Virus record (IMG/VR): IMGVR_UViG_3300027754_000249
Location: 1 to 35,282 of that record
Direction: 5' to 3' (one strand)
From: a virus
Length of the DNA stretch: 35,282 bases
The notes below the pieces were generated by a model. The model was not told where the DNA came from. It was given only the letters and a program-made list of their open reading frames with translations, and did no database searches. A program made the translations under genes and the position numbers. Shown one piece after another: positions 3,535 through 35,282 of the stretch; position 1 is the first letter of the stretch; every line of letters begins with the position of its first letter.

Positions 3535-4055
3535 GCCCCCCTTACCATAGCGCCATTAAAATATGTCGTGGTTGAAGCCGCTTGGGTTGTTCTTGTACTA
3601 CCAAAATTTTGAAATGCATAAATTTCAACATAATCAGTTGATCCATTCATAGAAACAATTGATGTAACTATAAAAATTGGGTCTCCCGTATTTGGCTGTA
3701 TTACAAGGTTACCAAGTTTATATGCAGAACCATTTTTATATAAAGTAATATATAAAGTGTTTCCAGAAGCAACACTTTGAATACGAACTGCGGCATTGAT
3801 TTGGTAGTATCCAGCCACAGTAGGAGTAAACCTACTAGACGCAAAATTACTGTTGGTGTCAAATTCTTCAGTATCAAATAGGACTTTTGTATCTGCGTTG
3901 TTTGTTAAAGTTGTTGCTGTGCCAGCATAAGCGCTAAAAGCAGGGCCAGTACCAGCCACGCCTGCGGCTAAATCAGGCTGTGTGATGATTGCATCAGGCA
4001 AACCACCAGCACTAATACCAGTAATTGTTCCTGTGCCGTTAATCGTTATGGTCAT
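3531..4055 (-). CDS. C1q/TNF-like fibre tip protein
   Basis: A 174-aa protein with a short N-terminal segment (MTITINGTGTITGISAGGLP) and then a C1q-like jelly-roll from about residue 37: FSAYAGTATTL, the YYQINAAVRIQS region after FTPTVAGYY, and a final YFNGAMV strand. C1q-like domains form trimers and occur as receptor-binding heads of phage fibres. It follows a 56-aa chaperone-like gene by an ATGA overlap and is followed by another chaperone-like gene. The N-terminal segment resembles the starts of the two larger fibre genes upstream (M-T/S-x-x-I-S/N-G), which may be a shared docking tag. Confidence 0.75.
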   Translation of the reverse strand: MTITINGTGTITGISAGGLPDAIITQPDLAAGVAGTGPAFSAYAGTATTLTNNADTKVLFDTEEFDTNSNFASSRFTPTVAGYYQINAAVRIQSVASGNTLYITLYKNGSAYKLGNLVIQPNTGDPIFIVTSIVSMNGSTDYVEIYAFQNFGSTRTTQAASTTTYFNGAMVRGA

Positions 4056-4222
4056 TGTGTTTCCTCTGCGGGAAGTGGCGTGTTACCCTCTGCAAGCCAA
4101 TCTAAATATTCTTGGTAATCAATACTAGTTGGTTCAAAGGGAATACAAGCGCCATCTGCTATGCGAATGATTGCTCTATCATTAATTTTGTCACCAAACA
4201 TTACTTGTTTATATTGTGTCAT
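4052..4222 (-). CDS. Fibre-chaperone-like small protein (56 aa)
   Basis: A 56-aa frame starting MTQYKQVMFGDKINDRAIIR. Its second half, with the pattern IPFEPTSIDYQEYLDWLAEG and then NTPLPAE, is a very common C-terminal signature of small phage proteins encoded next to tail fibres. The start lies directly against the stop of the 334-aa fibre gene, and the stop forms an ATGA overlap with the C1q-like gene. A role as fibre assembly chaperone or fibre-tip subunit is inferred. This and the gene at 3364-3534 each follow a fibre gene. Confidence 0.72.
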   Translation of the reverse strand: MTQYKQVMFGDKINDRAIIRIADGACIPFEPTSIDYQEYLDWLAEGNTPLPAEETQ

Positions 4223-10168: not shown

Positions 10169-11428
10169 TTATATCCCCGAAATAATATCTAGCGGTTGCC
10201 ACTCATCTTCTTGGTCATCTTGGAAGTATGAGGTAACAGCCAGTTGGTCAATGTAGGAAAGAGCATCAGGCAAGTCATCGTGAACACCTTGGGCTGGAAA
10301 CATCAAAAGTTGATCTTTGAATTCATCCCAATCTTCCTCAGAGTTCAGCACAATACGCCCATGCTCAAACCTTCCTTGGAGACTCCAGATAATTCTGTCA
10401 GTCTTTTTCCTGTTGCCATGCGTTAAGTCAACTATGTGGGAATATACATTATTTTTCCTCATTAGGTCACTCAAATAAGGCAAAACAGCGTTTTTTAACG
10501 CTCCCCTCTCAATTCCAACACTCAAAGGGCGGTATTCCCGCATCTTCAGCAGAATCGTAGCTGCAGTCTCCCGAATGTCCCAACGCCCATAAGCAATCTC
10601 TTTCACAAACCATTTGCCCTCGTCAGTTACCTTGACTACAGCAATGGCAGTCTGGTCAAGACGCTTCTTCGAGTTAGCCGCCTGTCTAGCTACTTCCTCA
10701 AATCCAGCCAAGTCAACAGCTACAAAGTAAGAGCCATATTCAGGTTCTACCCCGTACTTAATCCACTCCTCCTTGAATACATCAGAGCCAGCATTTGAAA
10801 AAGATGCCATATACTCTTGCTTGAAGGCGAATGAACTTAGGGTCTTCTTCGCACTCTCGATCTCGCTAGGGTCTATTAATGGGTTATCTTGAGTAGTAAA
10901 GTGCCAAGACTTCCAATCAGGGTCACTACCCTCTTGACCTAAGTTGTACAAATCAAAGAACCAATTCCTACCCTTGGGTGTTCCGATAAACATGGCCTTA
11001 CCCTTCTTGTCGGATAGAGATGCCCTAATTACCTGTTCCCAAGTCTCAGGTTTAATGTCAGCTACCTCATCCAAGACTGCGTAAGTTAAAGACACTCCTC
11101 GCAAAGTGTCGGGTCTGTCTGAACCCCTCACATATATCTTTGCGCCGTTAATCAAGGTAACTTCCATGTTGTTCACATGGCTGCTTTGGATAATCTCCCG
11201 ACCAACATCAAGCAGTACATCCCACACAATCTGTCTAGCCTGTCCCTGAGTCGGGGCGACATAAAGCACCGCACTACCAGCAGGGCAACTCAACCCCTCT
11301 ATTAAGAGAGTAGTAACCGCAAGCCTCGACTTACCGCACCGCCGACCAGCCACGACAACCTTGAACCTAGTCTTGTCGGCGTAGACCTCCTGCTGCCAAG
11401 GCAGTAGCGCAAAGTTCAGATCAGCCAT
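10169..11428 (-). CDS. terL: Terminase large subunit
   Basis: A 419-aa packaging ATPase-nuclease. Walker A is VVVAGRRCGKS (residues 24-34), Walker B YAVLDE (116-121), and a coupling motif IGTPKGR lies at about 148-154. The RNase-H-like nuclease domain has AVDLAG with D239, SVGIERG with E307, and HDDLPDALSY with D384/D385/D388. All catalytic acids are present. The protein cuts concatemers and drives DNA into the procapsid through the portal. It overlaps TerS by 8 bases. Length is normal for the Terminase_6-like group. Confidence 0.93.
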   Translation of the reverse strand: MADLNFALLPWQQEVYADKTRFKVVVAGRRCGKSRLAVTTLLIEGLSCPAGSAVLYVAPTQGQARQIVWDVLLDVGREIIQSSHVNNMEVTLINGAKIYVRGSDRPDTLRGVSLTYAVLDEVADIKPETWEQVIRASLSDKKGKAMFIGTPKGRNWFFDLYNLGQEGSDPDWKSWHFTTQDNPLIDPSEIESAKKTLSSFAFKQEYMASFSNAGSDVFKEEWIKYGVEPEYGSYFVAVDLAGFEEVARQAANSKKRLDQTAIAVVKVTDEGKWFVKEIAYGRWDIRETAATILLKMREYRPLSVGIERGALKNAVLPYLSDLMRKNNVYSHIVDLTHGNRKKTDRIIWSLQGRFEHGRIVLNSEEDWDEFKDQLLMFPAQGVHDDLPDALSYIDQLAVTSYFQDDQEDEWQPLDIISGI

Positions 11429-11852
11429 CTTTAGCCTCTATGTCTTCTATGTCTTTGGGTTCTTCAGCGTCAATTGTCGTTGTGGCTACTGTTGGAGCAC
11501 CTATGCCAGTGATATTAATGTGGATTGCACTCCTCTGGCTCTTATCCTTCTCAAACATAGAGACAGGCAGTGTGCGGTCTACACACATCTTGATAGCTGC
11601 CATCTGTGCGGGGTGGTTGTCATTCAACGCTATGCTAATCATCTTCTCGACAACATCCTTACCACTCGACCTAATAAGCATATCCTTCAGGTCTTTGATT
11701 CTTTGGTTGTCAGTCTTGGGTAGCGCAAGATCAGGATTCCTTGCGTACTCCTGTATCTGACGCTTTAAGCCAAATACACCCTTGGGTCTGCCAGCCTTCT
11801 TCTTCTCTGGCTGCACCTCGTCTTGGATGTTGTTCATCTGTTCTATCTTCAC
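11421..11852 (-). CDS. terS: Terminase small subunit
   Basis: A 143-aa protein immediately upstream of TerL. It has a basic N-terminal arm with KKKAGRPKG, an AT-hook-like DNA-binding motif, a helical core (DLKDMLIRSSGKDVVEKMIS), and an acidic C-terminus (EEPKDIEDIEAKDG) that would contact TerL. The GTG at 11852 has AAGGA 5 bases upstream and is preferred over the ATG at 11837. The assignment is by position, size and composition rather than by a strong motif. It should recognise the packaging site, which may lie in the adjoining gene-free region. Confidence 0.75.
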   Translation of the reverse strand: MKIEQMNNIQDEVQPEKKKAGRPKGVFGLKRQIQEYARNPDLALPKTDNQRIKDLKDMLIRSSGKDVVEKMISIALNDNHPAQMAAIKMCVDRTLPVSMFEKDKSQRSAIHINITGIGAPTVATTTIDAEEPKDIEDIEAKDG

Positions 11853-11887
11853 GATTGTCCTTGTCTTTGTGGGCGTGATAGGTGGGG

Positions 11888-11896
11888 ACTATAGCA
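11888..11896 (-). promoter_or_regulatory. Extended -10 promoter candidate for the late operon
   Basis: On the minus strand TGCTATAGT matches an extended -10 element (TGn-TATAnT form). No good -35 box is visible at 17 bases. A transcript from here would have a ~28-base leader before the TerS GTG. It would start the long leftward late operon. Confidence 0.35.
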
Positions 11897-12040
11897 AATT
11901 GGGAGTTGATAATCTTCTTTTTTTCGTAGCGGGGAGTGGGGGACTGGCTTTTTTCCAATTTCGCTTTTTCAGAGGGGCGGATGCTCCCATAACTTTGACG
12001 GGCGGCGACCACCCCCTCCCCCCCATCGAAAAATCTCCGA

Positions 12041-12263
12041 GTTATCCACAGGCAGCTGTGGATTCTGTGGATAACTTCTGTAAGTTGTTGATTTCATTGG
12101 ACTTTTGCAGATGCTTACAGATCGCTTACAAAATCGGTTTTATACAACATCCATTATGTTAACTTTAAATATCTGAAAGTAGTACACGCATATGCAAACT
12201 GTGACAGGAAATGAAACCAGATTGGCAAATTGTGGATAACTTGCCCTCCGATCTGTGGATAAC
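12041..12263. other. Probable replication origin with four DnaA boxes
   Basis: Four exact 10-mers GTTATCCACA or its complement TGTGGATAAC occur at 12041-12050 (direct) and 12066-12075, 12231-12240 and 12254-12263 (inverse). The 9-mer TTATCCACA is the consensus high-affinity DnaA box. The first two form an inverted repeat with a 15-base spacer. Near matches TGTGGATTC (12057) and TGTAAATAA (12264) lie alongside, and AT-rich DNA (12130-12175) separates the pairs. The cluster lies between the primase region and the terminase genes. It could recruit host DnaA; sequestering DnaA is the alternative. Confidence 0.75.
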
Positions 12264-12484
12264 CTGTAAATAACTTGGCATTCCGCATTCTGAAAAGGAT
12301 TTTTGGGCGGTGGAGAAGTGTGAAAGAGGCGGTGGGTGCTTTATCGGGGGACTGTCATCGCAATGCGGTTTGGATTACATTGTAAATAGGATAGATTCGC
12401 ATTCAATAATTAGTTACCAAAGCCACGCTAAAGATCGTCATGGCAATACCGCTAGGAAGCATTAAAACAAGGTTTATAGCCGTT

Positions 12485-12691
12485 TTATTGGCTATCCTTA
12501 TCTACCCCTAAGAAATCCCTAAGATCGGCTTTAGGGCGATATCCTAGTTCCCACAAGATTGCGTAGCAATCCAAGACATTCTTAAACCCATTGCTGATGT
12601 TTCCCTTGCCAGCACAAAGCAGGATTGTCCTATCGGCATCAGTCAACTTGCGCCTGAACTGGACTGTGGTTGTAGTCGGTGGTCTAGCCAC
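12485..12691 (-). CDS. Ribbon-helix-helix-like small protein
   Basis: A 68-aa protein. The N-terminal strand TTTVQFRRKLTDADRTIL followed by GKGNISNGFKNVLDCY matches the layout of ribbon-helix-helix DNA binders (basic strand, helix, G-N-I-S turn, helix). The C-terminus (RPKADLRDFLGV) is short and polar. It is the last gene of the leftward replication operon and ends at the edge of the origin region. It overlaps the upstream gene by 8 bases. It could control plasmid-like copy number or late transcription, which is inference from fold and position. Confidence 0.6.
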   Translation of the reverse strand: MARPPTTTTVQFRRKLTDADRTILLCAGKGNISNGFKNVLDCYAILWELGYRPKADLRDFLGVDKDSQ

Positions 12692-13340
12692 GATTCAAAG
12701 GCTTGTACTTGGGTTCATAAGGCTCACCAGAGAAGATCGCATCTAGATCGTCTTCCATGTCATCAAACCCTGAACCTTTACCAAAGCCTTCCTTGGGTGT
12801 GAACTTGGTAATCCTCGCAGTTGGCACAAGTGCCTTCATCTTGATGATCTCCTGCACTTCAGGCTCTTGTAGGAAAACCTCAATCTCCTCAAGAGTCCAG
12901 ATGTTGCCGTTGTTTATGTCTTTGCGGTGGGTCTGAAGTTCAACCGCATCAGCTTCAGTCCTGACCACTACCATCGGTACACCTCGGACTGACTTCCATT
13001 CAAGGAACTGGATTGCTGGATTAGGCTCAATCTCATTTTCTTCAGCCCACTTCTCCAGAGCATCGAAACCCTTGCACATTCCATTAACTGCTTTATGCAG
13101 CCTATCAATGTCACCCAAGTCCACGGCATCCCAAACTCTACCCATCTGCACCCAAAACTTAGCCCTAAACTCAATGTCAACTAAAGTAATCAATCTGTCA
13201 ACTCCCCATTTCTCGTAGTGCTGACCCTTTTTACGCTCAAGTTCAACCAGCACAGCGTTAGATTGAATCTCCCACTGAGTCGCCTGACGTTTCGGTACTT
13301 GAACATCTGGAACATCTTTTCTTGACCTTGATCTAACCAT
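12684..13340 (-). CDS. Unknown protein between primase and origin (218 aa)
   Basis: I do not recognise this family. It has a basic N-terminus (MVRSRSRKDVPDVQVPKR), a helical centre with aromatic residues (FWVQMGRVWDAVDLGDIDRL), and an acidic tail containing DDMEDDLDAIFSGEP. The ATG at 13340 is preferred over 13346, since AAGGAG is 8 bases from the former and only 2 from the latter. A basic head with an acidic tail suits a nucleic-acid or replisome partner. It lies directly between the primase-helicase and the DnaA-box origin, so a replication accessory role is plausible but unproven. Confidence 0.65.
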   Translation of the reverse strand: MVRSRSRKDVPDVQVPKRQATQWEIQSNAVLVELERKKGQHYEKWGVDRLITLVDIEFRAKFWVQMGRVWDAVDLGDIDRLHKAVNGMCKGFDALEKWAEENEIEPNPAIQFLEWKSVRGVPMVVVRTEADAVELQTHRKDINNGNIWTLEEIEVFLQEPEVQEIIKMKALVPTARITKFTPKEGFGKGSGFDDMEDDLDAIFSGEPYEPKYKPLNRG

Positions 13341-13500
13341 TTTCATAACTCCTTAAAAAAACGACAAAGGGACAAAGAGACAGGGGACAAACCTCTTGTA
13401 CATAGACAAGAGGTGGTTTGTCCCCATTTACTCGGAAAGACATTTGGGACATTTGTCCCCATTTGTCTCGTTTGTCACTGGATGAACATACAGCACTCAT
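13333..13500 (-). CDS. Doubtful small ORF across a repeat-rich hairpin (55 aa)
   Basis: A 55-aa frame MSAVCSSSDKRDKWGQMSQM... with an ATGA overlap on the primase stop and an 8-base overlap (ATGGTTAG) with the next gene, exactly the junction styles used elsewhere in this genome. However, most of it is the translation of repeated GGGACAAA units and a 17-bp inverted repeat, and the sequence is of low complexity (CPLSLCPF). It may be an RNA or DNA element that happens to stay open. No function can be given. Confidence 0.35.
   Translation of the reverse strand: MSAVCSSSDKRDKWGQMSQMSFRVNGDKPPLVYVQEVCPLSLCPFVVFLRSYENG
13383..13425. repeat. Large inverted repeat built on GGGGACAAA
   Basis: GGGGACAAACCTCTTGT (13383-13399) pairs with ACAAGAGG-TGG-TTTGTCCCC (13406-13425) around a 6-base loop: 17 pairs with one 3-base bulge. 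Further GGGACAAA or TTTGTCCC units flank it (near 13370 and 13448-13462). It lies between the primase stop and the next gene and could be a processing site, attenuator or protein-binding array. Confidence 0.75.
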
Positions 13501-15512
13501 ATCTCCGAGGTAGGTTTCAACCACACCCAATTAGACCCAATTACAACCTTATTCACGGCTACAAGTCTCTCCCTTGCCCGTGTCCAAGCCTTCTTAAAAG
13601 CTGCCCGATCATCCTCATTGCAGCCCTTCATAGACCAAAATTCATCCTTCCAATCATCCAAACTCACGCCAAACCTACTAGTACCATCTACTACACGATA
13701 TGAGCCTTTAGCCTTAATCGCTTTGTACAGAGAATCCAACTCAATCTTCTGATTTCCACCGCTTCCTGAGTTGTTTTTAGTCCCTTTTGGCTTGCTGTTA
13801 GCGATCTCTTGATTAGGTCTAACTGCCAAACTGGTGATGGTTTCAAACCCCAAGGCTGACTCACCGACCTCAACACTCACCACTTCGATGCCTACCGCTA
13901 TGGAGTCAGCGCCATCTTTCTGCTTGGTGACTGTCAGGATTGCGTTACCCACAACTGACGGGTCTGCTGAGTTGATGACTGAATCCTGCCTTTGTATCTC
14001 AAGTTCAGTGTCTACAGCACCTAACAGGCTGGAGTGTCCTCGTAGACCTTTCGTAATGTCCTTACCTGAGTGGTGAATCAGGAGCATGGCGCATAGGTAG
14101 ATTGCTTGTATCTTGCCAGCTTGGGTGATGAAACCACCCATATCTTCTGATGAGTTCTCGTTGAAGCCGCCACCTGACATACGCATCAAGGTATCCAAGA
14201 TGATGAGTTCAAGGGGTTCATCTATTTGGGCTATGAGTTCGTTGATGGCTGCAACCAGTGCATCAAAGTCTTCTTGGCTTGATCTGATGTTGATTTGCGC
14301 CCTGATTACATAGAGATTTGCGCCATCTGGTGAGTTATTCTGTATCTTGCAAGCCTTCACCCTAGCGCCCATACCGCCGTGTCCCTCACCAGCTATGTAT
14401 AGGACTGCGCCTTTCTTGGGTACTCTGTAACCCATCCATTCCCTGCCTGTTGCTACTGCTTCTGCAATATCTAGCGCAATGAACGACTTGAATGATGCTG
14501 GTGGTGCGTACAGTGCTACGAATGCTCTCTTTGGGATGATGGATTCAATGAGCCACTCAACTGGTTCATCCTTAATGCTGTCCCAAGACTCGACAAGAAA
14601 TCTAAACTTTGAGGCTTCTTCTTCTTGCGGAGTCTCAGGACTCTCCAACAATCTTTGCGGAGTGTGAACCTCGGCTATGGACTCCACAACAGGACAGGCT
14701 TTCGCTATTTGCGCCAGCAAGGTTCTGCTGCCATCGTATCTATTGACCCACTCGTAAGCGTCTTCTTTGGGATTACTTAGGTTCAAGTCCAAGACCCTAA
14801 CGCTCTTGGCTGTGGGTATTAGTGCCTCAACGACCTTCTGTGCATATTGCCAACCAGAAATGTCGTTATCTGGCACTACAACGACATTTGCATCCGCAAA
14901 GTATTGATTTAACTCAGGATTCCAGTTTCCTGCGCCAGCATGACTTGTCGTAGCCACAACGCCCAAGCTGCCCAAGGCATCTGCCGCCTTCTCACCCTCG
15001 GTTATGTACACAACCCTACCAGCGGCTGTTGCCTGTTGCAGATCGGGCAACTTGTAAGGGACTATCCTGCAATCTCCTAACTTCCCTACTCTTGTGCCAT
15101 CAGGCATGACTCTAAGGGTCTTATATGTCTTGCCTTTGGAGTCAAAGGTCTTGAATCTTTGCTTGATGAATAGGCTGATGCCATCTTCATCGGTGTAATG
15201 CCATTCATGCTCTAGCACTGGCGTAGAGATTAGAGGGATTGGTTTCATTGGTTTGATACTGTCAAGGTAGTCAGGTCTGTCTGGTAAAGCAGGGAGAAGT
15301 CCCATGTCCTTGATGGTAGAGAAGACAGTGTGCTGGTCACAGCCGCCATGACACTTGAACAGGAAGTTGCCATCATCTGACATAGTTATAGACAGGCTTG
15401 GATGCTTGTCGCCGTTGCCTTGCCCATGACTAGGTACGGGGCATGATGCTAGGTAACCATTGCCTACCTTCTTTGCGTTACCCAAACTGGACGCTATTTC
15501 TTGTGCTGACAT
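13497..15512 (-). CDS. Primase-helicase (zinc finger, Toprim, RecA-like ATPase)
   Basis: A 671-aa fusion. Residues about 24-58 hold a CHC2-like zinc finger (CPVPSH, then KCHGGC). Residues 167-217 form a Toprim fold with VVYITEGEKAADAL (E172) and VVVPDND (D215-D217). Residues 330-540 are a RepA/AAA_25-type RecA ATPase with a Walker A variant APPASFKS (336-343) and Walker B LELIILDTL (D440); LIHHSGKD is a likely sensor motif. The C-terminus is a helical DNA-binding-like region. It makes primers and unwinds DNA at the fork. No phage DNA polymerase gene is nearby, so host polymerase III is presumably recruited. It follows a terminator 22 bases upstream. Confidence 0.88.
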   Translation of the reverse strand: MSAQEIASSLGNAKKVGNGYLASCPVPSHGQGNGDKHPSLSITMSDDGNFLFKCHGGCDQHTVFSTIKDMGLLPALPDRPDYLDSIKPMKPIPLISTPVLEHEWHYTDEDGISLFIKQRFKTFDSKGKTYKTLRVMPDGTRVGKLGDCRIVPYKLPDLQQATAAGRVVYITEGEKAADALGSLGVVATTSHAGAGNWNPELNQYFADANVVVVPDNDISGWQYAQKVVEALIPTAKSVRVLDLNLSNPKEDAYEWVNRYDGSRTLLAQIAKACPVVESIAEVHTPQRLLESPETPQEEEASKFRFLVESWDSIKDEPVEWLIESIIPKRAFVALYAPPASFKSFIALDIAEAVATGREWMGYRVPKKGAVLYIAGEGHGGMGARVKACKIQNNSPDGANLYVIRAQINIRSSQEDFDALVAAINELIAQIDEPLELIILDTLMRMSGGGFNENSSEDMGGFITQAGKIQAIYLCAMLLIHHSGKDITKGLRGHSSLLGAVDTELEIQRQDSVINSADPSVVGNAILTVTKQKDGADSIAVGIEVVSVEVGESALGFETITSLAVRPNQEIANSKPKGTKNNSGSGGNQKIELDSLYKAIKAKGSYRVVDGTSRFGVSLDDWKDEFWSMKGCNEDDRAAFKKAWTRARERLVAVNKVVIGSNWVWLKPTSEI

Positions 15513-15584: not shown

Positions 15585-16184
15585 TTAGCTAAACATCTCG
15601 TCATCATCCATTGCTGGTGCTGGCTTTGAGGGTGCTGGTTTGCTAGGTGCGGGTTTAGCAATGGGTGCTGGAACTTGAGTTGTAGGAAGTACAACAAATT
15701 CCGCTGCACCTTCTTGCATCGCCGCTGGTCTAGCTACCCAACCTGTGACATTGAACTCAGGTACACGAGTGCTTCCCTTGCCTACCTTTTCGGGTCGTGA
15801 GCCTGTATATTCAACCACGGGCAACTTCCCCAAATTAGCGCCAGCTTGCGCTTGCACTTGCTTCCACAGACCTTCCAAGCCCATGTTTGCCCCTGCGCCA
15901 TTGGCACTGAACTCTGCGATACCCATAGTCTTGTTGTAGAAAGTAGCCTTAAATCCCCGCTTATGTTCGGGTGATGGTTGCGCTGATTTACGACCAAGAG
16001 ACTCATCAGGTTGGAATTCAAAGATGCCAGTTGCAATGAGCATCCATCCAGTTTGCAAGTTCTCGTGATCGAATACAAATTTCTCTAATACAAATTCACC
16101 ATCTTGGTTCGACCAAGCGTTAGCTTGTGGCGAGAATCTGATGTAGTTGCCAGAGCCGCCAGAGTTTGAGAGGTTTAAGTTCAT
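15585..16184 (-). CDS. Single-stranded DNA-binding-like protein
   Basis: A 199-aa protein. The N-terminal ~150 residues look beta-rich with aromatic residues (GNYIRFSPQANAWSNQDGEF, ATGIFEFQPDE), as in OB-fold ssDNA binders. Then comes a Pro/Ala/Lys linker with the repeat APSKPAPSKPAP. The last residues, MDDDEMFS, are an acidic tip with a terminal aromatic, the feature by which SSB and gp2.5 proteins contact partners. It lies between the nuclease and the primase. The SSB role is inferred from the architecture. A strong terminator follows the gene. Confidence 0.7.
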   Translation of the reverse strand: MNLNLSNSGGSGNYIRFSPQANAWSNQDGEFVLEKFVFDHENLQTGWMLIATGIFEFQPDESLGRKSAQPSPEHKRGFKATFYNKTMGIAEFSANGAGANMGLEGLWKQVQAQAGANLGKLPVVEYTGSRPEKVGKGSTRVPEFNVTGWVARPAAMQEGAAEFVVLPTTQVPAPIAKPAPSKPAPSKPAPAMDDDEMFS

Positions 16185-16254: not shown

Positions 16255-17343
16255 TTATTGTGTTAAACCTTTATCTCGTGCAAGCGTTAATCCGCTAGAT
16301 ATGCGGGAAGTTAACGCTTCGAGATTAGGCTTTTGGTCTTTTGTTAGCAGTTTCTCTGCCGCTGCAGGAGTGATGAGTTCGGTCTTCGTTACTTGATCTT
16401 CATCAAGTCCCAAGGCTAAGAGTCCTTTCTTAGCGGCAGATTCATCAGTCCACGACCTCAACGCTCTCTTAGGCTGCAGTTGCCAACCATCAATGACAGA
16501 GCCTGACTCCATGCGTTTGAGGGCATGATCTCGTACCGCCTTGATGTAGCCCTCAACCATGTCAAACTTAGTCAGCAAGACGCTGATTTGACTTTCTGTG
16601 AGCATCTCTACAGGGGGTGCAGTTGCAACTATCTCTGCAATGTTTGCTTGTGCAGGGCAGATAGTTCTAGCGTTGCAGTATTGGCAAGCAGAGTCAGAGG
16701 GTACGGGTTGAAACAATGGGTTCAGTGCATTCTCAATAGCAGGGATGAGAACATAGTGTTCCCAATCAACCAACTCCTGAGTTGTCATTGAGTGCTTGCG
16801 AGTCTCACCATGATGGGGTTGGATAATCCACAACTCGACAGTATCAATGTATTTGTAGAGTTGTTCAGCTTCAAGAGCAGCTAATCCGTATAGACGCAAC
16901 TGGTCATTGTCAGCGTCTACATAACCCCTTCCAGTTTTAAGGTCTGCAATGATAAGTTTGCGTTTCTCTTTGCTGATGCCGATTACGTCTGTAGTGCCGC
17001 CCACCTTAACCTTGTTAGAGTCTTGGTAAGGCAAGAACTTTTCGACAGTTACTGAGCCTTCTCCAAGTTCATCCTCAATAGCCCAGATAGCTTTTAAATG
17101 CTCAAGAGCAAACTCACAGTTTTCCTCAGTCATGGTGATACCTTCCACGACTGTACCGATTGACTTCATCGGGTCTGAATCCAACTGAAAGCAAGTCTCC
17201 GCCAAGGCATGAATGGCAGTCCCGATCTTTGCCGCCTCGCCGCCTTCCACATAGGGCATCTGTGCTGAGAGTCTGGCAGAGGCGGGACAGGCAATCCATC
17301 GGGATGCCGCTGATGCTCTAAGGCTTAGTTGTTTTGTTGCCAT
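16255..17343 (-). CDS. Cas4/AddB-like PD-(D/E)XK nuclease (DUF2800 type)
   Basis: A 362-aa exonuclease-like protein. Motifs are GTAIHALAET (H45), GTTDVIG (D119), IIADLKTGRG (D134, K136) and QLRLYGLAAL (Q148), a complete PD-(D/E)XK nuclease set. C20 in the N-terminus and C220, C223, C229 (SACQYCNARTICPAQ) fit the split four-cysteine [4Fe-4S] staple of AddB and Cas4. It would resect DNA ends for recombination-dependent replication. It lies between the RuvC-like and SSB-like genes. The start overlaps the upstream 77-aa gene by 19 bases. Confidence 0.83.
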   Translation of the reverse strand: MATKQLSLRASAASRWIACPASARLSAQMPYVEGGEAAKIGTAIHALAETCFQLDSDPMKSIGTVVEGITMTEENCEFALEHLKAIWAIEDELGEGSVTVEKFLPYQDSNKVKVGGTTDVIGISKEKRKLIIADLKTGRGYVDADNDQLRLYGLAALEAEQLYKYIDTVELWIIQPHHGETRKHSMTTQELVDWEHYVLIPAIENALNPLFQPVPSDSACQYCNARTICPAQANIAEIVATAPPVEMLTESQISVLLTKFDMVEGYIKAVRDHALKRMESGSVIDGWQLQPKRALRSWTDESAAKKGLLALGLDEDQVTKTELITPAAAEKLLTKDQKPNLEALTSRISSGLTLARDKGLTQ

Positions 17344-17558
17344 GATGCTCTTTCAATGTGATGGTTTTCAATGAGTAGTTGGTATGCGAGTTGGCGTATC
17401 TCATTTGAGACTGCATGACCTAAGTCTTCAGGGTCTAACAGACGCTTGATGAAGACTACAGTCTGTTGGTTTTGCCTACGCTCTTGGTCAAGCTGTGAGC
17501 CTAGCCAAACGATATGTTCACGGAATATATCAACCTCTGATCTAGATTTCTTATCCAT
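17325..17558 (-). CDS. Small helical protein (77 aa), unknown
   Basis: A 77-aa, charged and helical protein, starting MDKKSRSEVDIFREHIVWLG, with a possible coiled coil (QLDQERRQNQQTVVFIKRLL) and no cysteines. It overlaps the RuvC-like gene by 8 bases and the nuclease gene by 19 bases, so the three are tightly coupled. I do not recognise the family. A role as a recombination partner is inferred from its place only. Confidence 0.6.
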   Translation of the reverse strand: MDKKSRSEVDIFREHIVWLGSQLDQERRQNQQTVVFIKRLLDPEDLGHAVSNEIRQLAYQLLIENHHIERASWQQNN

Positions 17559-18042
17559 GCCTCAACCCCCAACAAGCAATGAGTGCTGCATCAGCACGAC
17601 CATCATCTTTCTTACGCTTGAAGTAGTCCACGTTATAGGGGAACAACTCCATAGCCCTTGCTCTTGCGCCATCCTTACCACCTGTAACACCCATAGCTTT
17701 CTGCCAAATTTGTGGGAGAACAAGGGTAGTCTTGATTGATCTTGCGGCAATAACACCCTCAATCGCACCAAGGCTGCGCCCGAACGAAAAAACGCTTGTC
17801 ACCCCCTGACCACTTCTAGCAAAAACACGCTCTATGAACGCTTCTTCTGGCTGGAAATCATTGAGGATGGCGATAAGTTCGGGAATGCTAATCTGTCTCT
17901 TGGCTGCGCCATTGCGATTCAAAGTGACTGTAGGCATATCAAAAATACCTGTCAAAGTCTCGCCTCTCATCATTGCAATTGCGCCATTTAAGCCCACATC
18001 AATGCCAATGATGCGTTTGGGGGTGAAGAATTGAGTAATCAT
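17551..18042 (-). CDS. RuvC-like Holliday junction resolvase
   Basis: A 163-aa RNase-H-fold nuclease. IIGIDVGLNGAIA (D15) is the first strand motif, EEAFIERV (E71) the second, and KKDDGRADAALIACWGLRH carries the last acids (D147, D151). This D-E-D-D set is the RuvC catalytic centre. It would resolve branched replication or packaging intermediates before terminase action. It overlaps the regulator gene by ATGA, so both are read from the same leftward promoter. Length is normal for RuvC. Confidence 0.87.
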   Translation of the reverse strand: MITQFFTPKRIIGIDVGLNGAIAMMRGETLTGIFDMPTVTLNRNGAAKRQISIPELIAILNDFQPEEAFIERVFARSGQGVTSVFSFGRSLGAIEGVIAARSIKTTLVLPQIWQKAMGVTGGKDGARARAMELFPYNVDYFKRKKDDGRADAALIACWGLRHG

Positions 18043-34241: not shown

Positions 34242-34652
34242 TCAATCCTTTTTAATTGAACCACCAGATTTCCAAGCATCACAAGTACGCAATGCCGCAC
34301 AAGTGAAATGGAATAACTCACAGAAACCAAGATCAGCGGCATCAATAAACTGCTGGTCATAGTCTATTTCATTAGGCGAACTCTTGCCTTTTTTTAAACC
34401 CGACTTGATGCATTCCATCATCTTAGGAGTCTGAATAAATGCCGCACAATTACCGCAACGCATGGTTTTAACAACATCGGTAGGTGCGTTATACATCTTG
34501 GCTTTCTTCAGCCAAAACGCTTCATTGGGTTCAAGTGGATTTGGCGCACCATACCCAAAATTCTTAAAAGCGTTATTACGATTTTTTAGATTAAGTTCAA
34601 TGTCTTGCGTAGGCAATGGACAAACTTGACCTGAAAGAAGTCCCTCTTTCAC
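34242..34652 (-). CDS. Cys-rich phage protein, possible metal or Fe-S binding (136 aa)
   Basis: A 136-aa protein with seven cysteines: C11, C66, C69, C81, C111, C118 and C124. The last six lie in TMRCGNCAAFIQTPKMMECI and LGFCELFHFTCAALRTCDAW. This spacing recurs in phage proteins of the same type and is reminiscent of high-potential iron-sulphur proteins, but identity is not proved. It starts at a GTG overlapping the upstream TGA. Placed in the head-completion part of the late operon. The partial copy at 1-289 is the same gene. Confidence 0.7.
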   Translation of the reverse strand: MKEGLLSGQVCPLPTQDIELNLKNRNNAFKNFGYGAPNPLEPNEAFWLKKAKMYNAPTDVVKTMRCGNCAAFIQTPKMMECIKSGLKKGKSSPNEIDYDQQFIDAADLGFCELFHFTCAALRTCDAWKSGGSIKKD

Positions 34653-34852
34653 TTAATCCACCTTGCGGCAAAGAAACTTAACACTCCAGATAAGGCAGAT
34701 GCAATAACCATCCCCATCCAAAATCCACCCTTGCTTTGATTGGCTAACTCTAATAGTGTCTTTACATCGGTACTCAATTGAGTTACTTGACCATTTAGAG
34801 CCTCTACTTGAGCCTCTAACCTACCAAAATCTCTTGCGTCAATTTCAGACAT
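34649..34852 (-). CDS. Coiled-coil plus single-TM protein, second copy
   Basis: A 67-aa protein equal in length to the gene at 286-489. It has the same heptad helix (RLEAQVEALNGQVTQLSTDV) and TM (WMGMVIASALSGVLSFFAAR). Only a few residues differ (KT for KA, VLSFFAARWIK for VVSFFASRWLK). The ATG at 34852 makes the same 8-base overlap with the upstream gene. XhlA-like holin accessory is the likely type, role inferred. Confidence 0.65.
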   Translation of the reverse strand: MSEIDARDFGRLEAQVEALNGQVTQLSTDVKTLLELANQSKGGFWMGMVIASALSGVLSFFAARWIK

Positions 34853-35060
34853 TTGCAACCTTTCGGGGTCTTCCCATACGCTTAATTGTTGGAATAACAG
34901 GCGCAAAAGCGGTATCTGTACGCTCAGAATCAACTGATTCTATGGTTACTTCTTCTTCGTCTACCAACTCATAACCCTGATGACCATCCATAGAGTCAAT
35001 ATCATGTTGGAGGGTAAAAGTTACTGTATTACCCGACTGTAGACAACGAAAAGTAGCCAT
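34845..35060 (-). CDS. Small conserved phage protein (71 aa), second copy
   Basis: The counterpart of the 70-aa gene at 482-694. Both share MATFRCLQ-x-GNTV and the ending IPTIKRMGRPRKVANV. The middle differs by several residues and an indel (SVDSERTDTAFAPV against SEIRTDTAFRAPV). This level of change between two copies within one window supports two strain variants rather than recent duplication. Function unknown. Confidence 0.65.
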   Translation of the reverse strand: MATFRCLQSGNTVTFTLQHDIDSMDGHQGYELVDEEEVTIESVDSERTDTAFAPVIPTIKRMGRPRKVANV

Positions 35061-35101
35061 AAAACCCTTAAATGAGAAAGGGGGGACTAGCCCCCCAATC
35101 T

Positions 35102-35282
35102 TTATACCATTCGAGCAATAACCAATTTAACAGTAGTAGAAGCTAAATTAACAGCCCCACCAGTTGTATTAGTTGTTGCAATAGTCACTGTGTTTGCCGC
35201 TGAAACGTAAGCACGGCGAACTAAACCCGCCTCGTCTACACCAGCCGACATACCAATAACCATATCTCCAAGGGCAACGCCA
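35102..35282 (-). CDS. Putative head decoration protein, partial (N-terminus outside window)
   Basis: The C-terminal 59 codons or so of the counterpart of the gene at 736-1059, ending at a TAA at 35102-35104. The window ends at the position equal to base ~916 of the left copy. The visible part is almost unchanged from the left copy. The missing part would connect to the coat gene if the ends were joined. Confidence 0.7.
   Translation of the reverse strand, partial: GVALGDMVIGMSAGVDEAGLVRRAYVSAANTVTIATTNTTGGAVNLASTTVKLVIARMV

Follow-up and report, generated by a model that had tools for sequence, protein, structure and literature searches.

The DNA analysed here is a virus record of 35,282 bases (the window) with a gene-free gap between TerS (11421–11852) on one side and a small open reading frame (ORF; 12485–12691) on the other. 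The gap holds an array of DnaA boxes around an AT-rich centre, a predicted IHF site, and a core resembling the psi and dif sites used by XerCD. An overlapping ORF (11782–12162) was judged spurious by eye. The features of the gap, with some positions in relatives counted from the start of the XerD arm, are:

12010–12026: conserved G/C run separating TerS from the array, immediately outside the latter
12042–12050, plus strand: DnaA box E (TTATCCACA), exact match; many relatives have it at about +115
12057–12065: weak DnaA box (TGTGGATTC) between boxes E and D
12066–12074, minus strand: DnaA box D, exact match; about +91 in relatives
12081–12093, minus strand: IHF consensus AATCAACAACTTA (WATCARNNNNTTR), predicted from sequence
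12109–12130, minus strand: two TGTAAGC repeats spaced by 11 bp, iteron-like or DUE-like
12125–12184: AT-rich trough (25% GC), a candidate DNA unwinding element (DUE) by composition
12137–12164, plus strand: psi/dif-like core made of GTTTTATACAA (XerC arm), CATCCA, and TTATGTTAACT (XerD arm)
12231–12239, minus strand: DnaA box C, exact match; about -75 in relatives
12254–12262, minus strand: DnaA box B, kept in every lineage at -97 to -99 or -108
12265–12273, minus strand: degenerate DnaA box A (TGTAAATAA), which many relatives have as an exact box at -109

The exact box TTATCCACA occurs four times in the window, always inside 12042–12262, against 0.25 copies expected; 100 dinucleotide shuffles yielded at most two copies and none reached four. 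One-mismatch boxes are in no excess genome-wide (13 seen, 10.9 expected), so the signal is the clustering of the exact boxes. The initial annotation, made from the letters of the DNA, had described four identical consensus boxes in a gene-free region, one pair facing each other across 15 bases and a second pair some 155–165 bases off, and the counts, the geometry, and the gap bear out this description. Boxes D and E together form a 12-bp perfect inverted repeat. The same annotation caught the boxes and overlooked the predicted IHF site, the core that resembles psi and dif, and the position of an AT-rich trough on that core. The G/C run at 12010–12026 reads GGGGGGGAGGGGG on the minus strand and is followed by a conserved block, GTGGGAGC.TCCGCCCC; together they are possibly a packaging site.

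Beyond the small ORF lie ORF220 and a module of replication genes:

12684–13346, minus strand: ORF220, conserved, between the helicase gene and the array
13497–15512, minus strand: primase-helicase with a RecA-like AAA_25 domain, matching phage primase and helicase families
15585–16184, minus strand: 199-aa protein with an acidic SSB-like tail (DDDEMFS, read from sequence) and no family match
16255–17343, minus strand: DUF2800/PD-(D/E)XK exonuclease, same module as the primase-helicase
17551–18042, minus strand: RuvC-like resolvase, same module as the primase-helicase

No polymerase, integrase, initiator, or Rep-like protein was recognised among the window proteins scanned, in agreement with the earlier claim of a phage that has a primase-helicase and lacks a recognisable polymerase and initiator. 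ORF220 was rejected as a known initiator or loader, given that nothing in Pfam, PHROGs, PDB sequences, or folds matched it. Its family has 19 invariant columns and its structure model a mean pLDDT of 81, and it could be an unrecognised initiator. Scans for RNA families and tRNAs returned none. The two ends of the record (6–916 and 34368–35282) are 90.5% identical across the 917 columns of their alignment, which may reflect terminal redundancy, overlapping ends from strain variants of a ~34.4-kb circular genome, or a duplication that has since diverged.

We searched IMG/VR proteins with TerL and the primase-helicase and retrieved 157 loci. A set of 50 loci was selected by the helicase alone, with at least 2.2 kb of downstream sequence. 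Exact boxes lie downstream of the helicase gene in all 50 of these protein-selected loci, and 46 have two or more. In 49 of the 50 a box sits 93–112 bp from a core; the exception is L152, where boxes and core (3938–4138) are inverted as one unit relative to the helicase gene. The closest relatives space their boxes by 11, 23, 165–166, and 24 bp, and some lineages retain just one or two exact boxes. The array tracks the primase-helicase gene, and it persists in lineages whose helicases are ~50% identical and in which no relative of the window TerL was detected. In four other phages, with helicases at most 34% identical, the stretches read contained no exact boxes, which indicates that the array does not generally accompany helicases of that class. 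Searches for a similar element in plasmids and sequenced phages returned short matches only. The 128-kb Streptomyces phage Forrest (L302, 1501–1543), like phage Jada, has three exact DnaA boxes whose inverted layout is nearly identical, at a place where no genes are annotated.

Immediately upstream of TerS-TerL, and on the strand that encodes them, the element is placed as it would be if the boxes regulated the promoter of the late (terminase) operon through DnaA or a protein of the same specificity. The comparative data make this highly improbable. The array is also found without a window-type TerS/TerL, its distance to TerL varies (the boxes start roughly 600 to 1450 bp away), and the joint inversion of boxes and core in L152 speaks against a simple role in a promoter. 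The gap contains 1 promoter match versus 1.7 expected, no more than shuffled sequence, and a promoter or terminator role of the element was rejected.

Relatives that lack the helicase show what takes the place of the array. Many TerL relatives (86–90% identity) have a diverged TerS and no window-type primase-helicase. Where the sequence upstream is long enough, these relatives have other replication genes, such as a YqaJ exonuclease, the annealing protein Sak, and an initiator of the O-like or primosomal type, the initiators matching the PHROGs annotations "replication initiation," "replication initiation O-like," and "primosomal protein." For example, the sister loci L036, L050, L055, and L023 have a TerL ~88% identical to that of the window and encode an initiator, with neither the window-type primase-helicase nor DnaA boxes. 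Counted by locus, with overlapping fetches of some contigs included, 159 have the helicase and the array and 15, from related phages rather than independent events, have an initiator without the array; none has an initiator together with either the array or the helicase. A further 18 helicase loci lack the array, and those checked by coordinates end before or near its expected position. In another 44 loci the helicase, the initiator, and the array are all missing, and 39 show the array alone; many of these contigs are short and may not reach the missing parts. A PAPS-reductase-like gene adjoins the initiator in L036 (4778–5626), L055 (5363–6154), and L050 (4777–5625), the label in the last two being assigned by sequence resemblance.

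We regard the tie of the array to the primase-helicase, and its absence where an initiator is encoded, as the best evidence for an origin operated by host DnaA. The boxes could instead form a sink similar to the datA decoy that titrates host DnaA and stops initiation of the host chromosome during infection, as would be expected of a small genome present in many copies, each with several boxes of high affinity. We consider such a role very unlikely, as a sink needs no fixed spacing, IHF site, AT-rich centre, or linkage to a helicase module that excludes encoded initiators.

The spacing of the element was examined in 23 clustered lineages. These were selected for a core with a near-exact box 93–112 bp upstream, which builds in the presence of a box, though not the narrow distribution of box-core distances inside that range. 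Box B is 97, 98, 99, or 108 bp from the core in these lineages, and the 88 bp in between are only ~35% identical. The IHF consensus is found at +40 to +100 in 14 of the 23 (mononucleotide shuffles: mean 0.07, maximum 1) and, in most lineages having one, at +61 or +71/72, positions about one helical turn apart. Relaxed DnaA boxes number 74 versus 0.9 by shuffling in this same set, chosen for a core and a near-exact box. Many lineages have TGTAAG at +34 and +45; others lack it. Mean GC content across the 23 reaches its minimum on the Xer-like core, and in the window only 0.2% of 60-mers are as GC-poor as the trough at 12125–12184. The core itself lies near this minimum, close to the middle of the gap between boxes C and D.

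The XerD-type arm TTATGTTAA is exact in the window and nearly invariant among the protein-selected relatives. The psi site of pSC101, as taken from its record, is GGTGCGCGCAA / GATCCA / TTATGTTAAAC. It shares with cer of ColE1 and with the phage core an 11-bp XerD arm (TTATGTTAAnn) and a XerC arm ending in CAA; the 6-bp centre of the phage core, CATCCA, resembles that of psi. The phage XerC arm is otherwise divergent, and, unlike psi and cer, the core has DnaA boxes and a predicted IHF site as its neighbours. Over the whole core the identity to psi is 19 of 28 bp, near the shuffle limit (best of 300 shuffles, 18), so the case for a Xer site rests on the XerD arm, the spacing, and the conservation. 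The 6-bp spacing between the arms is indeed conserved, and the XerC arm, divergent in the window, is dif-like in a few lineages (AGTTCGCACGA). A scan of viral contigs for the combined box and core pattern returned at least 120 stretches; in at least three of these (L211, L246, and L266) the arms are unrelated and the match looks fortuitous.

The marginal identity to psi, together with core arms that are also pseudo-palindromic, leaves some room for the core being a phage operator or part of a DUE that merely resembles a Xer site. We find this doubtful in view of an invariant block that is exactly of the XerD type and of the dif-like XerC arms, such as AGTTCGCACGA, in some lineages. Furthermore, the core has the 11-6-11 layout and the better conserved XerD arm that characterize dif sites (PMC2731167).

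A second reading takes the array to be mainly an accessory complex for XerCD, in which DnaA and IHF would bend and synapse the DNA at the psi-like core while replication starts elsewhere. ArgR/ArcA and PepA are the accessory factors at cer and psi, and DnaA would take their place. Such a complex would account for a box B that stays 97–99 bp or about one turn more (108 bp) from the core across a poorly conserved interval, and for IHF sites likewise one turn apart. DnaA is, to our knowledge, not known as a Xer accessory factor. The boxes, moreover, follow the replication genes, and several sister phages with O-like initiators keep a dif-like core without DnaA boxes, so that the array as primarily an accessory complex seems unlikely. 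In favour of the accessory reading, cer and psi use accessory sequences of ~180 bp (PMC5357621). Dif-like cores without boxes lie upstream of TerS in the sister phages L016, L020, L034, L037, L053, L058, L065, and L070. The retention of the core without boxes in some initiator-bearing sisters suggests two functions.

Xer-integrating phages such as CTXphi, VGJphi, and Jorvik also combine a dif-like site with the absence of a recognised integrase gene. The present phage differs in being tailed, in having no prophage seen, and in the centre most common among its relatives' cores, TGTCCA, which is unlike that of the host-order dif sites found. No exact match to the dif pattern was found in the metagenome-assembled genome (MAG) G001, and six relatives gave dif sites, with the centres TGTATA and TGTGTA. 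A TerL scan of genome contigs found two MAG contigs only, one of them 82% identical, and no prophage. Among 399 genomes of the order of that TerL-matching MAG, the best helicase match was 41% identical.

The boxes, IHF site, and AT-rich region match the anatomy of oriC and of plasmid origins, which argues for a DnaA-dependent origin. Several exact DnaA boxes, an AT-rich unwinding region, an IHF site, and no initiator encoded by the element itself are shared with E. coli-type oriC. The phage element differs in belonging to a tailed phage with its own primase-helicase, in having its AT-rich centre flanked by boxes on either side, and in including a Xer-like site. DnaA boxes, IHF, and a DUE are likewise the anatomy of the P1, pSC101, and RK2 origins, and that of P1 has two arrays of DnaA boxes (PMC4980987). 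These plasmid origins, which share the host DnaA boxes, IHF, and AT-rich region with the phage element, need a plasmid Rep protein that binds iterons, whereas the phage has two short TGTAAGC repeats only and no Rep-like protein was found.

We therefore regard the element at 12041–12273 as probably the replication origin of the phage, operated by host DnaA and IHF, the phage helicase, host DNA polymerase III, and XerCD resolution. From the boxes and their conserved spacing, the IHF consensus, the AT-rich trough, the psi/dif resemblance, and the mutual exclusion of array and initiator we infer how it may work. Host DnaA would bind the four or five boxes flanking the AT-rich centre, and host IHF would bend the DNA at 12081–12093. 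The AT-rich stretch would then melt, allowing the phage primase-helicase (13497–15512) to load and prime. The phage would contribute the helicase, the primase, and probably an SSB, and host polymerase III would copy the genome. XerC and XerD of the host would most likely resolve genome multimers at the psi-like site; integration of the phage at dif is a less likely role.

The initial annotation had also proposed a host-DnaA origin; its reading is partly supported, with strong comparative evidence in favour. The GC-skew switch looked for at 12.0–12.3 kb is absent, and the GC3 skew of the coding strand is similar on both sides. Such a switch is a supporting sign, rather than a strictly defining one, of phage and plasmid origins, and a weak test in a small phage. 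The fixed distance from the boxes to the Xer core, which an origin alone does not need, counts against a pure origin. We tentatively entertain, at fairly low odds, that the element is a single 230-bp switch operated by the host, in which DnaA and IHF, assembled at fixed helical positions around the psi-like core, would control XerCD recombination as well as opening the origin. The firing of the origin would then be joined to the resolution of multimers (or to integration) in a tailed phage in which neither an initiator nor an integrase is recognised.

As a rule, a tailed phage encodes its own protein for marking and opening the origin. This large group of uncultured freshwater phages, known only from metagenomes, appears to rely on host DnaA without an initiator of its own. 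DnaA-assisted origins and Xer sites are each already known. Within a narrow search of titles and the opening lines of abstracts we found neither DnaA-dependent origins of tailed phages nor a coupling of DnaA to Xer, and a tailed-phage group without a recognisable initiator that joins both in one phased element is, as far as that search extends, apparently undescribed. DnaA boxes, an IHF site, and a Xer core held in such a fixed geometry would be a new arrangement, and the sister phages that encode an initiator provide natural controls for the reliance on DnaA. If the origin reading is correct, multiplication of these phages would be tied to the initiation regulator of the host, and the regulation of DnaA would be a point of control between phage and host.
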